A DNA stretch of 35,344 bases, taken from a virus. Below the pieces are notes generated by a model, which saw nothing but the letters and a program-made list of their open reading frames with translations, searched no databases and was not told where the DNA came from. Shown piece after piece: positions 8,158-32,618 of the stretch. The translations under genes and the position numbers were made by a program. The stretch lies in IMG/VR virus record IMGVR_UViG_3300044950_000231, positions 1-35,344 of that record; one strand, written 5' to 3'. Numbering within the stretch: the stretch's first letter is position 1; each line of letters begins with the position of its first letter.

Positions 8158-9933
8158 TTAGTTAATGACCTCAGTCGTGTTGACTGTAGCACAAAACACA
8201 ATAGAAACCCCGACTTGACCTGTCGCCAGAAGTCTAAGAGCACCGTTGGTCGTATCGGCATTGATCGTGAAAGTCCATGTGGAAGCGCCAGCATCCTGAA
8301 GAGGAGCGTCAATAGTTACCGCGCCAACAAGAGCAGTTGATGCAGCGTCAGCACCACGTTTGATCGTTCCTCTGAATCTCCATGATGACACGTTAGCGCC
8401 AGCTTTAGCCGCACATGATCCGTCAAACACAAACACCGAATTGTTAGGCATAGTGATTCGAGTTGTTGCGCTCGGTGTGGAACCGCCGCCAGTAAGTTCA
8501 TATGAAGATGTGTCCGTGACATATCGGCTAACTACATATCGTCCGTGCTGGGCATCTCCGGATGTGTTATAGCGCCCAGTAGCGTGTGCCATCATTCCAT
8601 AAATGCTGCGAGTGTTGGAATAATATCCCATAGTAGCTGAATAGTCTCCAGACGCGACATTACTGCGCCCGCCAAGAACACTTGAGTATTGGCCGGATGC
8701 AGTATTACTAGCGCCGCCGGTGACAGAACTATATGTTCCAGATGCAGTATTCGCTTGGCCGCCTAGAACAGCTGCTTGAGATCCGTTAGCCGTATTCTGA
8801 ATACCACCTGCGATTGTGCTATACGTTCCACCGGACGATATAGTGTTGAGATAACCGCCGGAGACCGTCGAGTTCTCGCCAGCCGCGCCATTGTCATAAC
8901 CGCCGCCAACAAATGCATAATATGCAGAAGCTTCATTTGATCTTCCGCCAACAACAGTAACATAGTCACCGTTGTTGATTGTATTGCTGCTGCCGCCACC
9001 AATAAACTGATAGTAGCCACCGCTTAGACTGTTCGTTGTGCCACCGCAGATAACACCGATGTTACTGTTGTTAGTATTGCCACTGCCGCCGCCAATAACC
9101 CCGCTGCCAGCATTTGTATTGAGGAGGTTGCTTGAGCCGCCGCCTACAAAACCGTTAGCTGCAACGCACGTGTTATTTGACCCGCCTACGATGACAGTTC
9201 GAGATCCTGAAGCGACCTGTGATGCGGCTGTTCTAACTGTCTGAAGATCAATTGCGCCAACTCCTCTTTTGTTACCTCCAGTCACGAGGTTGTCAGGTAT
9301 AGCAGCGATGATGCTGCCGGTGCCTTTAGGCCGAAACACCGCGTCAACATTAGTCGTTGTAGCTGCAGCTGTTAAACTTGATACGTTCACAGTATCGTTC
9401 GGTGCTGCTGACGTTAGTCCTTCAACAAAGTTAATGGCGGTGGGAACATCCACGAGATCGGAATAGGAGACAGCGCCGTCGAGGCGCGATGTCAGAGCCA
9501 AGGTCCCGCTTGCATCAGGTAAAGTAATGATGTGATCCGCCGTGTAGCTTAATGGCGCGTAGAGCTGAGCCTTGAACCCCGCGTCGCTCCACATATTCAA
9601 TACGCCACTTTGCCCACTACCAGACGTATTGACGGAAATCGAACTGACTCCGAGCCCATCGCCTTCCTGTGCCAAGAGCACCAACAATTGGGCTTGGGTC
9701 AGCTTTCCTGAAAGGGCTAACGCCAAGTCCTCTTGATTGTCGAGCGTGCCGGTAATCGTACCCCAGGCCCCACCAGAGCTTATGCTTTGAATGACACCAT
9801 CGGCGTCCTTGTAATACAAAATCCCGTCTCTGTAATTCAACGCGAGTTCACCAAACGATAAGAACGATTGGTCAGGAACTGCGCCTTCAACAGCAGTCTT
9901 CTTGATGATAAGTTTTGCAGTGATTTCGGCCAT
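8158..9933 (-). CDS. Tail fiber with YadA-head-like repeats, 591 aa
   Basis: The N-terminus (about 1-55, with FGELALNYRDGILYYKDADG) matches a common phage fiber attachment motif. Residues about 242-452 are a run of 13-16-residue repeats of the type NTASG.YSSVLGGRS. This is the left-handed parallel beta-roll signature of YadA-type trimeric adhesin heads. The C-terminal 110 residues form a beta-rich tip. A trimeric host-binding fiber is inferred. It begins 6 nt after the stop of the upstream fiber (stop at 9939), probably co-transcribed. Confidence 0.8.
   Translation of the reverse strand: MAEITAKLIIKKTAVEGAVPDQSFLSFGELALNYRDGILYYKDADGVIQSISSGGAWGTITGTLDNQEDLALALSGKLTQAQLLVLLAQEGDGLGVSSISVNTSGSGQSGVLNMWSDAGFKAQLYAPLSYTADHIITLPDASGTLALTSRLDGAVSYSDLVDVPTAINFVEGLTSAAPNDTVNVSSLTAAATTTNVDAVFRPKGTGSIIAAIPDNLVTGGNKRGVGAIDLQTVRTAASQVASGSRTVIVGGSNNTCVAANGFVGGGSSNLLNTNAGSGVIGGGSGNTNNSNIGVICGGTTNSLSGGYYQFIGGGSSNTINNGDYVTVVGGRSNEASAYYAFVGGGYDNGAAGENSTVSGGYLNTISSGGTYSTIAGGIQNTANGSQAAVLGGQANTASGTYSSVTGGASNTASGQYSSVLGGRSNVASGDYSATMGYYSNTRSIYGMMAHATGRYNTSGDAQHGRYVVSRYVTDTSSYELTGGGSTPSATTRITMPNNSVFVFDGSCAAKAGANVSSWRFRGTIKRGADAASTALVGAVTIDAPLQDAGASTWTFTINADTTNGALRLLATGQVGVSIVFCATVNTTEVIN
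8578..9210 (-). repeat. YadA-head-like coding repeats
   Basis: Encodes residues about 242-452 of the 591-aa fiber. Gly-Gly pairs recur every 13-16 residues with SNT.SG.YS motifs between them. The copies are diverged at DNA level. Confidence 0.75.
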
Positions 9934-9938
9934 AAGTA

Positions 9939-10982
9939 TTAGAATATAAGCGTGAACATGAAACCGCCAAAAGCAGCAGCGGGTATGCTATTAGCGTCTT
10001 TGAAAGCAACATTATTTTCGATGAGATTAGTAAGCTTTGTGTCTATGCTCTGCACAACGAAATATCCCGCCTGTCTATCCGTCACAGTAAATAAATGGTC
10101 GCCGTTATTGCCCAATCCAGTGACCATTACACTATAACCAGTGATTGGCATGGCCCAATTAAAGTGAATAACTGCGATGCCAACACCCCAAGGCCCCATT
10201 GGTGCTATGGTTGTGTTAATTTCTGCGGAGCAGTTACCGAACCCTCCGCCGCCGAACACAGTTCCAAATGCCCGAACACCATATATTCTATATGCATCAT
10301 ATGCAGTGCCGCCAAACAACTTGCTTGATGTTATAGCACCTCCGCCGACTTTAGTAGCAGTGATTGCGCCGTCACCGATCTTTCCATTCGTGACCGCGAG
10401 ATTTGCAATCTTTGTTCCGGTCACAGCTAAATCAGCAATCTTTCCAGTCGTGACATTAAGATCTGCGATCTTAGTAGATATGACTGATCCGTCGATCAGC
10501 TTCCCGGATGAAATCGTGGTGTTTGCAATCTTTGTTCCGGTCACAGCTAAATCTGCGATCTTTCCAGTCATGACAGCTAGATCTGCGATCTTTCCAGTCG
10601 TGACAGCCAGATCAGCGATCTTTCCAGTCGTGACATTAAGATCAGCGATCTTATCAGTAATTACTCCGCCTAAACTTATACGTGTAGACGTTACGGCGCC
10701 GACCGCAATCTTTCCTTCAGTTACGGCTGCAGCAGCTAGCTTTAAAGTTGTGACAGCATCATTGAGAATATGGGTTGTGTTAACGCCGTTTACTTTAAGA
10801 GAAATCGTATTCGTCGATGTATTGACCGAAATGGATTCTGACGCAGAGTTTGCACCAAAGCCAGCGATCACGTTGATGACGCCGTTGTCTTTCTTCCGCC
10901 ATAGGTTGAACGTGTCAGTCGTCACAACACCGCTCGACGAAAATGCATCGAACGAAGTGAACTCATCAGGATCAGTAATCAT
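9939..10982 (-). CDS. Decapeptide-repeat tail fiber protein, 347 aa
   Basis: Residues about 76-225 are tandem 10-residue units of the form KIADLAVTTG, with gradual drift at both ends (KLIDGSVIST, KIGDGAITAT). They probably form a rod-like shaft, as in fibers recalled from marine myoviruses. The N-terminal segment (about 1-75) would anchor to the tail. The C-terminal 115 residues (from about 230, with AYDAYRIYGVRAFGTV and TGYSVMVTGLG) form a distinct tip domain. A GATAAATA late element lies 6 nt upstream of the ATG and overlaps the stop codon of the preceding gene. Receptor unknown. Confidence 0.8.
   Translation of the reverse strand: MITDPDEFTSFDAFSSSGVVTTDTFNLWRKKDNGVINVIAGFGANSASESISVNTSTNTISLKVNGVNTTHILNDAVTTLKLAAAAVTEGKIAVGAVTSTRISLGGVITDKIADLNVTTGKIADLAVTTGKIADLAVMTGKIADLAVTGTKIANTTISSGKLIDGSVISTKIADLNVTTGKIADLAVTGTKIANLAVTNGKIGDGAITATKVGGGAITSSKLFGGTAYDAYRIYGVRAFGTVFGGGGFGNCSAEINTTIAPMGPWGVGIAVIHFNWAMPITGYSVMVTGLGNNGDHLFTVTDRQAGYFVVQSIDTKLTNLIENNVAFKDANSIPAAAFGGFMFTLIF
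10310..10755 (-). repeat. 30-nt tandem coding repeats (decapeptide shaft)
   Basis: About a dozen 30-nt units encode K-I-A-D-L-x-V-T-x-G decapeptides. Several are near-identical at DNA level (the 12-mer GATCTTTCCAGT recurs on the plus strand near 10558-10640), giving potential for slippage or recombination that changes fiber length. Confidence 0.8.
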
Positions 10983-28767: not shown

Positions 28768-29367
28768 ATGAAATCAGTTGCTAACACTTACTTTACTCGC
28801 ATCGCGGCAAAGGCCGAGAAGGCAGGTATTAGGAAGAACACCGAGGAATCTCACAAGTGGTTCATCGACAATTTAAAGAACATCCGTAACATTTCACGTA
28901 AAGCATTGTTGAATGACAACGTGCTGACGACGAGGTCAAAACCATTGATCGGCCGTATGTTCATGTACTTCTATGATCCTAAGTACAAAGAAACACTCCC
29001 ATACTATGACCAGTTTCCGCTAATCATAATGGTTGAACCTGCAAAGAATGGTTTCTATGGTCTTAACCTTCACTACCTTCCACCTCGTGTTAGGGCAGTG
29101 TTCTTTGACCGCCTTCTTGAGTATGCAAACAACAAGAAGCTGAATCCAAAGACTCGTCTAATGCTTACGTATGAGATGCTGTCGAGCACGCGTAAGTTGC
29201 GTGCATTCCAACCATGTTACAAGCGGTACTTGTTTGATCACATTGCATCAAAGGTAGTTGAAGTTCCGCCAACTGCATGGGAAGCAGCTCTATTCTTACC
29301 AACCGATTCGTTCGTATATGCTGACCGCCGCAAGATCTGGCGCGACTCACTTCCATTCCAAAAGTAA
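28768..29367 (+). CDS. Conserved protein of T4-like marine phages, function unknown, 199 aa
   Basis: I chose ATG 28768; a TTG at 28765 is in frame but would fall in or before the expected transcription start. The protein has no motif I can assign. Its central part (GRMFMYFYDPKYKETLPYYD, then FPLIIMVEP, NGFYGLNLHYLPP) and the C-terminal FKPCYKRYLF-like segment (here FQPCYKRYLFDHI) recall a family often found in cyanophage structural regions and annotated as hypothetical or virion protein. Its neighbours (gp4, tube-fold protein, gp26) suggest a head- or baseplate-assembly role. It overlaps the next gene by one base (TAATG at 29365-29369). Confidence 0.7.
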   Translation: MKSVANTYFTRIAAKAEKAGIRKNTEESHKWFIDNLKNIRNISRKALLNDNVLTTRSKPLIGRMFMYFYDPKYKETLPYYDQFPLIIMVEPAKNGFYGLNLHYLPPRVRAVFFDRLLEYANNKKLNPKTRLMLTYEMLSSTRKLRAFQPCYKRYLFDHIASKVVEVPPTAWEAALFLPTDSFVYADRRKIWRDSLPFQK

Positions 29368-29888
29368 TGACAAACCTCGACGCATTCAAGGCCGCAATGG
29401 CAAGACGCGGTGGCATATCAAAGGCCAACCGCTTCGACATGATTTGCACGCTACCGCCTAGCATCACAAGCGATGACCGAGGCCGTGACCTAACACTCAT
29501 GTGTGAGTCCGCGCAGTTGCCTGGCAAGCAGATCACGTCAATTGAGTACTCGCTTTACGGTCATAACATCAAGGTTCCTACGGGATTCATTCAAGAAGAC
29601 GTTACCCTTGTGTTTAACATCACGAACGATTACTACGCAAAACGAATCTTCGATGTCTGGCAAAACATTGTCGTCAACGGCACAACTTTCAATTTAGCGT
29701 ATGATTCCGAATTCAAAGTTGACATTATGATTCGGCAGTTAAGCGACAATGATTCGGTTGTTTACACGACACACCTGCTAAGAGCATATCCTATCTCCGT
29801 TCAAGCAATGACACTTGACAATAACTCCGACTCACAAACTCAGAAGCTTACTGTCGTCATTGCATACGACGACTTCCGACAATTCTAA
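29367..29888 (+). CDS. Tail-tube-fold protein (gp19/gp54-like), 173 aa
   Basis: Its length and strand pattern fit the tail tube fold (T4 gp19, 163 aa): RFDMICTLPPS, ESAQLPGKQITS, VTLVFNITNDYYAKRIFDVWQ, and the C-terminal LDNNSDSQTQKLTVVIAYDDF, which parallels the T4 gp19 ending around EIQTFEVTLALDYW. The major tube gene normally lies beside the sheath gene downstream of gp13-15. A copy next to gp4 and gp26 is therefore more likely a baseplate-side paralogue such as the tube initiator (gp54 role). That choice is inference. Confidence 0.65.
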   Translation: MTNLDAFKAAMARRGGISKANRFDMICTLPPSITSDDRGRDLTLMCESAQLPGKQITSIEYSLYGHNIKVPTGFIQEDVTLVFNITNDYYAKRIFDVWQNIVVNGTTFNLAYDSEFKVDIMIRQLSDNDSVVYTTHLLRAYPISVQAMTLDNNSDSQTQKLTVVIAYDDFRQF

Positions 29889-29905: not shown

Positions 29906-30613
29906 ATGGCATTACCAACAATCGAATCACCAAAATACAGTGTCCGCCTTCCATCAACAGGCAAGACCATTGAATACCGCCCATTCCTAGTTAAGGAAGA
30001 GAAGGTCCTACTTATGGCGCAGGAATCAGGCTCGCCTCGTGAGATGGTCACGGCAATGAAGGACATCATCAAGGCCTGCACGTTCAACAAGGTTGACCCT
30101 AACGCCCTAACGTCATATGACCTGGAATTCATGTTCCTCAAGTTGCGTGCAAAGTCAGTTGGCGAAACATCGACGATCAAGATCAAATGCGATAAGTGCG
30201 AAGCGTTCACTCCTGTTGATGTCGACATCGACAACGTTACGCTCGACGTTCCTCAAGACAAGGTTAACATCATGCTGACCGACACCGTCGGAATCACGAT
30301 GCGGCATATCCGTGTTAGAGACATGGGCAATCTGACAGACACAAAGGATCAGGGCGACCTAATCAATGACACCGTCATTGCTTCGATTGAATCAATCTTT
30401 GACGCAACGCAAGTGTATCCTACTGATACTGAAAAGAAGGAGGAACTCGTCAAGTTCGTCAACTCGCTCAACCGCGCGCAAATGAAGGAGATCGAAGCAT
30501 ACATCGCGAACACGCCCAAGGTATCGTGCGACGTTGCTTTCAAATGTTGTGGCCCAGAATGTGGTCATGAGAACAAGGTATCCCTAACCGGCATCCAATC
30601 TTTTTTCGACTAA
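29906..30613 (+). CDS. gp26: Baseplate hub assembly protein, T4 gp26-like (zero-frame product)
   Basis: 235 aa (T4 gp26 is 208). The N-terminus (PKYSVRLPSTGKTIEYRPFLVKEEK) and ALTSYDLEFMFLKLRAKSVGE are typical of gp26-type proteins. Cys95/Cys98 (CDKC) and Cys208-His221 (C..., CCGPECGH) look like a two-part zinc ribbon. The zero-frame ends in SFFD then TAA, directly on a slippery heptamer that leads into a longer -1 product. It lies immediately upstream of the tape measure, the place of tail assembly chaperone genes in other tailed phages. The ATG has no Shine-Dalgarno. Confidence 0.8.
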   Translation: MALPTIESPKYSVRLPSTGKTIEYRPFLVKEEKVLLMAQESGSPREMVTAMKDIIKACTFNKVDPNALTSYDLEFMFLKLRAKSVGETSTIKIKCDKCEAFTPVDVDIDNVTLDVPQDKVNIMLTDTVGITMRHIRVRDMGNLTDTKDQGDLINDTVIASIESIFDATQVYPTDTEKKEELVKFVNSLNRAQMKEIEAYIANTPKVSCDVAFKCCGPECGHENKVSLTGIQSFFD

Positions 30614-30783
30614 GCCTCTCGCACGAGTCGCTGGTGAACTTCTTCCAGACGAACTTCGCGCTGATGCAGCATCATAAATACTCGCTAACCGAACTTGATA
30701 ACATGATGCCGTGGGAACGGGAAGTATACGTCTCAATGCTAATCAATCATCTCAAGGAGGAGGAAGCTAAACACAAGAAATAA
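29906..30783 (+). CDS. gp26 frameshift product (292 aa by -1 shift at 30601-30607)
   Basis: After a -1 slip on T TTT TTC, codons resume at 30607 and stay open for 58 residues to TAA at 30781-30783. The extension begins RLSLSHESLVNFFQTNFALM and includes NMMPWEREVYVSML, a helical ending I recall as part of full-length gp26 homologues. In this frame a TGA at 30568-30570 closes the reading upstream. The only ATGs inside the extension (first at 30664) have no ribosome site, so fusion is the likeliest way to express it. The stop overlaps the tape-measure ATG by one base (TAATG). A missed T in the homopolymer would give the same fusion without frameshifting. Confidence 0.7.
30601..30607 (+). promoter_or_regulatory. 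-1 ribosomal frameshift site, T TTT TTC
   Basis: In the gp26 frame this reads (TC)T TTT TTC, an ideal X XXY YYZ heptamer. It lies 3 nt before the zero-frame stop at 30611-30613. P2 tail gene E uses the close relative T TTT TTG for its E+E' product. No strong downstream hairpin or pseudoknot was found by eye; CGACT 30607-30611 can pair with AGTCG 30626-30630, but it starts too close to the site. Confidence 0.7.
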
Positions 30784-32618
30784 TGGCAAGATATTCATCG
30801 ATAAACGATTCTGGGATTACTCAAATCGTCAAGGCCTTGGAGAAGGCTAATGATAAGCAGGAGTTTATTGCTGACACGATTGTCGGCTTTAATCCTGTCT
30901 TGCAGTCTCCTATCGTTTACGACATCATTGATAACGCGGTAGTGTTCATGGCCGGCGTTGCGTCAACACTGATAGACATTTCTGATACGGTCAACGGAAT
31001 CAAAACTGGAATCAGCGATGTGTTAGGGTTCTTCACAGGTCGCCAACTTCAGGAAGAGGAAAACCGTCGTGAATTGATCGACGCGTTGAACAACCTTGGA
31101 GAAGGCAGGGGCGGCCCTGGGCCTGTACCAACGAATGAAGCAAAGGATAAGAAAGTTCCTGCTTGGTTAATGTCGTTAGGTGGCATCACTGCGTTTGGCG
31201 CTTCGTTAGGGATGCTTTCAGGATTCATGGGCGAGATGTCTAAGTTACTTGCTAGTTCTCGTGGTATTATCTGGAAACTTCGAGTACGCGTTCGGTGGCT
31301 ATCAGGTAAAGGTCTTAAGCTGTTCGCTAGCATGTCTGAAGATTTTGGCAAGTTGACGAATAATCTTCAGACAATGCTTGAGAATAACAGATTCACAAAG
31401 CCATTCGCGAATATCGTAAAGTACTTCCGAGTTACGACCGAGGCAGGCGGAGGATTTCTTAAGTTCATAGGCAAGATCCTAACGAAAATCAAAGATGGCT
31501 TCATCGCGTTTGGCAAGTCGTTCAAATGGGGTGCAAAACTAGGAGGGTTGTTAGCCAAAGCACTTAAAGCGATTGCATGGCCTATCACAGTCATCATGGG
31601 CGCATACGCAACTATCATGGGCGCGATCAAAGGTTGGAAAGAAGGCGGATTGATTGGCGCGCTCGAAGGCGGCATATCTGGCCTGCTGGTAAACCTAGTC
31701 GGCGAAGTAGTTGATCTCCTCAAAGATGCGGTCTCATGGGTTGCAAAGATGTTAGGGTTCGAGAACTTCTCGAAGGCGCTTGACGGATTCTCATTCTCCG
31801 AATTGCTTGACACTGGCGTTAAAGCAATCTTTGGAACAATCGAGTACGTATGGGATTACATGGTTGGGCTGTTCTCACCTGATAAGTTGATTGCCTCGTT
31901 CGAGCAAGGCGGGTTTGCAGGTCTTGCTGCAATGATCGGTGGCGGTATCCTCGACATGGTAAAAGGAGCAGTCTCTTGGTTTGCAACAATGATAGGCGAC
32001 TTTGAAGTTGCTAACTGGCTTGACAACTTCTCAATTCAAGACTATCTCGTGAAGGGAGTGAAGGCAATGATTGACTTCGTTGGAGTCGCTATTGATGCTG
32101 TCATCAAGTGGTTCGAGGAAGCGCCTGCGATGATCAATAATGCTATGAAGTCGGTAGGCGACATGGCGAGTGATTTTGCAAAGAATATCCTGAAGTCAGT
32201 TTTACCCGATCCATCAAAGCATGATTCAGCCATTGACCCATTACACTGGGTCGGTAAAGCGATTCCAAAAGAAGTGTATCAGTTCGCGGGTATGCAAACG
32301 CCTGAGGAATACTCGAACTCGTTGAACGCCGGGACAGGTGGTGTTAATCCTTACGAGCAAAAAGCGAGGGAGATTATGGCGAAGGAGAAGAATGCCGCTG
32401 ATCAAAAGCTTATGGTTGAAGACTACATTCGTGGTGTTCCATCAAAAGCAGGATCAACCCTTGGTGAGGCAGGACCTGGCACAACAAATGCAGCGCCTGT
32501 GATCATCAATAACATGGGAGGCAACGTCACCAACAACTCATCATCTAACGTGAACAACAACTCATCGCCATTCGAGCCTATCATTTCAGGTTCCGCTTTG
32601 GGATTCTCGTCGTTCTAA
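30783..32618 (+). CDS. gp29: Tail tape measure / hub protein, T4 gp29-like
   Basis: 611 aa, near T4 gp29 (590), which sets tail length. The sequence is largely helical with repeated hydrophobic stretches at about 125-150, 262-285, 380-400 and 425-445. It also has recurring AVSW(V/F)A-M(L/I)G units and ends in a low-complexity Asn/Ser tail (NNSSSNVNNNSS). This, plus its place directly after the gp26 frameshift pair, supports a tape measure. If spacing per residue is as in other phages, the tail would be about as long as that of T4. The ATG overlaps the frameshift-product stop. An AAGGAGGAGG stretch lies 15 nt upstream, the best Shine-Dalgarno-like run in the window though far from the ATG. Confidence 0.75.
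   Translation: MARYSSINDSGITQIVKALEKANDKQEFIADTIVGFNPVLQSPIVYDIIDNAVVFMAGVASTLIDISDTVNGIKTGISDVLGFFTGRQLQEEENRRELIDALNNLGEGRGGPGPVPTNEAKDKKVPAWLMSLGGITAFGASLGMLSGFMGEMSKLLASSRGIIWKLRVRVRWLSGKGLKLFASMSEDFGKLTNNLQTMLENNRFTKPFANIVKYFRVTTEAGGGFLKFIGKILTKIKDGFIAFGKSFKWGAKLGGLLAKALKAIAWPITVIMGAYATIMGAIKGWKEGGLIGALEGGISGLLVNLVGEVVDLLKDAVSWVAKMLGFENFSKALDGFSFSELLDTGVKAIFGTIEYVWDYMVGLFSPDKLIASFEQGGFAGLAAMIGGGILDMVKGAVSWFATMIGDFEVANWLDNFSIQDYLVKGVKAMIDFVGVAIDAVIKWFEEAPAMINNAMKSVGDMASDFAKNILKSVLPDPSKHDSAIDPLHWVGKAIPKEVYQFAGMQTPEEYSNSLNAGTGGVNPYEQKAREIMAKEKNAADQKLMVEDYIRGVPSKAGSTLGEAGPGTTNAAPVIINNMGGNVTNNSSSNVNNNSSPFEPIISGSALGFSSF

Follow-up and report, generated by a model that had tools for sequence, protein, structure and literature searches.

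The locus considered here raises the question of whether a single T4-type gene 26 gives rise to two proteins, a short one ending at its own stop codon and a long one made by a programmed -1 frameshift. The DNA analysed (the window) covers positions 1 to 35,344 of IMG/VR virus record IMGVR_UViG_3300044950_000231. Its comparison with homologous loci leads to the conclusion that one gene very probably yields two tail assembly chaperone isoforms in this way.

Gene order and reading frames

All the features of the locus lie on the plus strand. The gene of the tail tube protein (29367..29888; phrog_3629, E 5.7e-37; phrog_45, E 3.1e-35) is followed by that of a gp26 homologue (29906..30613, 235 aa plus stop), the short chaperone form (TAC-N), and by that of a probable tail tape measure protein (30783..32618, 611 aa). 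The genes follow the order tube, chaperone, tape measure, the last one being assigned by position and by weak profile matches to tape measure families (best named: phrog_5448, E 0.001). The first-pass annotation had called this last gene gp29-like. It has indeed the position and the length of gp29, but its weak matches are to general tape measure families alone, and the 611-aa protein gave no match in the profile search to phrog_1283, where T4 gp29 falls. Elsewhere in the window, a 591-aa protein encoded on the minus strand (8158-9933) has many GG..N.A.G..S.V.GG repeats like those of trimeric adhesin heads and is probably a tail fibre. The adjoining region (9939-10982) is characterized by TGKIADLAVT repeats.

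The gp26 homologue has the PF12322 core domain (T4_baseplate; 191 bits for a cut-off of 24.5, E 2.6e-56) and matches phrog_150 (baseplate hub, E 6e-62). Its identity to phage records does not exceed about 41%. By direct reading, the letters 30599-30613 in the gp26 frame are TCT TTT TTC GAC TAA. They include the -1 slippery heptamer T_TTT_TTC (30601..30607), in the correct codon phase of gp26, and the zero-frame stop TAA (30611..30613), one codon past the slip site. The -1 frame read from 30607 (CGA CTA AGC ...) has 58 sense codons and ends with TAA at 30781-30783, i.e., an extension located at 30607..30783, the stop of which shares one base with the next ATG (30783-30785). The joined CDS, join(29906..30607,30607..30783), gives after shifted translation a product of 292 aa (TAC-NC). 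In the -1 frame the closest stop upstream of the slip is TGA at 30568-30570, and the sole two candidate starts inside the extension are a GTG and an ATG, 11 and 21 codons past the slip, respectively. The perfect heptamer, the 58-codon open frame with its one-base overlap and the lack of an upstream start are all present as the first-pass annotation had described them.

Conservation of the slip site

A protein search gave 80 IMG/VR loci (gp26 identity from 36 to 100%), which, together with the window and 14 phages from GenBank, made up a set of 94 readable loci. A further 23 readable loci, probably binned phage contigs, were taken from bacterial and archaeal genome bins. A run of at least six Ts, the first of them at the third codon position, then a gp51-like -1 frame, is found in 94/94 loci of the first set and in 23/23 of the second one. 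The first-pass annotation had proposed an alignment of homologues as a check of the junction and of the slippery site; both are conserved in 117/117 readable loci. The distance from the slip site to the gp26 stop is 0-2 codons in 85/94 loci and 8 codons in the 9 others.

The removal of gp26 proteins more than 80% identical left 43 representatives. Phe-Phe is present at the slip site in 40 of them and is written T_TTT_TTY in 40/40, vs. just 6/163 for Phe-Phe elsewhere in the same loci. These sequences are not independent; the contrast is nevertheless far beyond what chance retention by shared ancestry would leave at 30-40% protein identity.

The signal is present in named phages of Kyanoviridae, Schizotequatrovirus, Angelvirus, Ceceduovirus, Nanhuvirus, Pootjesviridae, Emdodecavirus and Menderavirus, and also in a Desulfovibrio phage. 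The T4-like gp26-51 loci from genome bins (genome_contigs, L112-L135) are in bins labelled Euryarchaeota, Thaumarchaeota, Bacteroidota and others, mostly as phage-like contigs in MAGs; the one found in a Heimdallarchaeota MAG (L134) has an N run within the gene.

Two other arrangements must be mentioned. At about 2170-2420 of the Bacillus phage SP-15 locus (L098; NC_031245 33514-36807), a gp26-like gene lies upstream of the annotated tape measure. The open frame of its extension, which contains MAIFERKEMYSRLLL, is +1 (= -2) instead of -1, and the T6 run is in another codon phase; this is possibly a -2 frameshift. In the Ackermannviridae phages KWBSE43-6, bering and Sa157lw (L092, L110 and L111), gp26 is followed by a conserved and unannotated -1 extension that is about 54 codons long and terminates in SMPWHL..LTETLK. 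At the junction the sequence reads ATT TTC ATT TAA and contains no canonical heptamer; the annotated gene that comes next encodes the tail lysozyme, not a tape measure.

Signals around the slip site

For the 43 representatives, kinship being ignored, the stretch preceding the slip site shows stronger pairing with the 16S tail than is expected from synonymous recoding (mean -6.6 vs. -5.2 kcal/mol, Wilcoxon p 1e-5), and the median rank of this pairing is in the top 3% of same-gene windows. The 60 bases past the slip site have a mean structure z of -1.55, vs. -0.02 to -0.84 in eight control stretches (kinship again ignored). In S-PM2 a 14-bp hairpin is located downstream of the slip site. No Shine-Dalgarno-like element precedes the slip site in the window phage or its nearest relatives, and no downstream structure better than shuffles was found in the window (z -0.75). 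The heptamer of the window is thus bare, and the slip efficiency may be low; a six-U site without clear helpers would fit low-percentage slippage. A tentative view, which falls somewhat short of being probable, is that the gp26-gp51 slip is tuned across T4-like phages by lineage-specific stimulators of the dnaX kind, namely a Shine-Dalgarno-like GGAGGG located some 9 nt before the site and a hairpin that follows it within about 20 nt. The bare heptamer would serve in some lineages, the window phage included, and T-even phages would have swapped the signal for a gene duplication.

These data also bear on transcriptional slippage, in which RNA polymerase would insert one additional U when transcribing the T6 run, the edited mRNA then being translated into the long protein. 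This alternative is improbable. In keeping with it, all the loci have a homopolymer run, 7 or 8 Ts long in 24/94, but 70/94 runs have six Ts only and bacterial slippage has been described on about nine As or Ts (PMC5009743). Moreover, the constant start of the run at the third codon position (94/94) is needed for a tandem tRNA slip, not for a polymerase slip, and the Shine-Dalgarno-like elements and downstream hairpins of many lineages are ribosomal stimulators. A slip of the ribosome is thus the preferred reading.

Identity of the extension and T4 genes 26 and 51

The extension, thought protein-like at first pass, can now be named. In the profile search it matches phrog_634, «baseplate hub assembly catalyst» (T4 gp51), with E 4.9e-29, and this family is matched by 24/24 extension or gp51 C-terminal members. 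It also matches the final 50 positions of phrog_150, the gp26 family profile (E 4.7e-7), thus some members of the gp26 family are already joined. When the window is compared with a related locus (L005), the mismatches at codon positions 1/2/3 of the -1 frame are 11/7/33 and 44/55 residues are kept. The differences are mostly at the third position, which indicates that the extension is translated and under purifying selection. On the basis of these matches, the extension is the conserved C-terminal part of gp51.

In T4, genes 26 and 51 are separate and divergently transcribed. T4 gp26 corresponds to the short form (27% identity to the window gp26). In the T4-type gene 26 the matching Phe-Phe is written TTC TTT: the T run is lost and the slip site is gone. 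T4 gp51 spans positions 13-280 of the 282 positions of phrog_150 (E 2.6e-84) and aligns with the 292-aa window product across core and tail, its last 47 residues or so being aligned with the extension. It is required for assembly and absent from the particle (PMC3004832). The same two-gene split is found in Aeromonas phage AS-gz. According to these alignments, T4 genes 26 (short) and 51 (long, i.e., gp26-like core plus tail) are paralogues, from which the same two isoforms are made; T4-type phages thus use two genes in place of a frameshift.

It is very improbable that gp51 is a separately started gene outside this group, as the GenBank annotation has it. Many cyanophage records do give gp51 a separate CDS, but the starts chosen do not agree with each other, or the ORF was overlooked (phages LPCS28 and P19). 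Among the 43 representatives the first starts range from -17 to +34 codons and two sequences have no start at all; in the window, the GTG and the ATG are already inside the conserved domain. T4 gp51 consists of a full gp26-like core plus this domain, and cyanophage gp51, about 20% the length of gp51 of other T4-like phages (Sullivan et al. 2010, PMC3037559), is short by about 200 N-terminal residues, as expected of a frameshift product. A sequencing error (seven Ts, hence one continuous 292-aa frame) is extremely unlikely and was rejected in practice, since, common as homopolymer errors are, six Ts are also present in independent IMG/VR contigs from other samples (L001, L002 and L003, the last one with nearby synonymous differences) and the frame break is common to all 117 loci, from many projects.

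The joined CDS is absent from every annotated GenBank record with the slip site that was examined; gp51 has arbitrary starts, is labelled hypothetical or is missed. In Cronobacter phage LPCS28 (L091) and Aeromonas phage P19 (L095) a gp51-like extension lies, unannotated, just after gp26; in other records its start is placed within the conserved domain. Outside the T-even group, gp51 of most T4-like phages is very probably the frameshifted end of gp26, with no gene of its own. This explains the «truncated» gp51 that had been noticed in cyanophages in 2010, and it follows that a joined CDS is needed in many GenBank records.

Proposed mechanism

With a ribosomal -1 slip, most ribosomes would stop at 30611 and produce the 235-aa gp26 (TAC-N). 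A smaller share, with the P and A sites both occupied by tRNA-Phe, would slip at 30601-30607 from TTT-TTC to TTT-TTT, read 58 further codons and produce the 292-aa gp26-gp51 (TAC-NC). In the lambda model, the tape measure is bound both by gpG and by the G portion of gpGT, and the tube protein by the additional T domain (PMC5009743). By analogy, gp26 would be made in many copies and gp26-51 in few: the abundant short form may coat the tape measure protein, and the extra domain of the scarce long form may recruit tail tube subunits or seed tube assembly.

Comparison with known systems

The gp26 frameshift had been regarded at first pass as possibly undescribed, which apparently does not hold. 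In T4-like phages, poly-T stretches of the short chaperone gene are known to act as -1 signals (PMC12846349, citing Vladimirov 2022), and some of these phages have separate genes for the short form and for a long fusion in place of frameshifting (PMC10885494, citing the same work). As represented in these citing papers, the gp26/gp51 chaperone class with poly-T slippage was apparently already described by Vladimirov, Gautam & Davidson (2022, Virology), thus the window locus appears as a further member of a described class. Nothing essential seems to differ from the T4-like chaperones so cited, the window coming from an uncultured phage with a distant gp26. Possible small additions to known work are (i) the occurrence, in many lineages but not in the window phage, of a Shine-Dalgarno-like element before the slip site and of hairpins after it; (ii) the mis-listing or absence of gp51 in GenBank.

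The flanking signals resemble the E. coli dnaX cassette: in S-PM2 and others, a 7-nt slip site of the homopolymer type is preceded at about 9 nt by GGAGGG and followed by a strong hairpin. However, the dnaX slip site is A_AAA_AAG and its shift yields a shorter product, and the window is devoid of flanking stimulators.

With the AlphaFold model of gp26 (pLDDT 85.8), no match with E <= 0.001 was obtained in a PDB structure search; the HK97 chaperone 2ob9 was at rank 50 (E 3.9, TM 0.35 on target). The model of a T4-type gp51 had no significant match in the same kind of search, and gp26 has no sequence relatives in PDB. Pfam and NCBIfam scans of 23 members revealed no other chaperone family, zinc-ribbon look-alikes alone being found.

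The lambda gpG/gpGT and P2 gpE/E' chaperones belong to another protein family, with no detectable sequence match, and gp26 is larger, with zinc-ribbon-like Cys motifs. The likeness is in the arrangement, i.e., a short form and a -1 frameshifted long form encoded directly before the tape measure gene. In the window, at the sequence level, the short and long products share their N-terminus and are related by a -1 slip near the 3' end, as in G/GT. The proposal that gp26 and its -1 extension join the lambda G/GT and P2 E/E' class is thus supported by comparative evidence.

The G-T frameshift has been described as conserved in long-tailed phages except T4 (Atkins et al. 2016, PMC5009743). As T4 gp26 is the short form and T4 gp51 the core with the same tail, gp26/gp26-51 would be the T4-type counterpart of lambda G/GT, and the T4 pair gp26/gp51 its equivalent after duplication. 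Short and long forms both match between T4 and the window; T4 differs by its two divergent genes and by a gene 26 devoid of slip site. T4 is therefore a natural test of whether two genes can replace a frameshift ratio.
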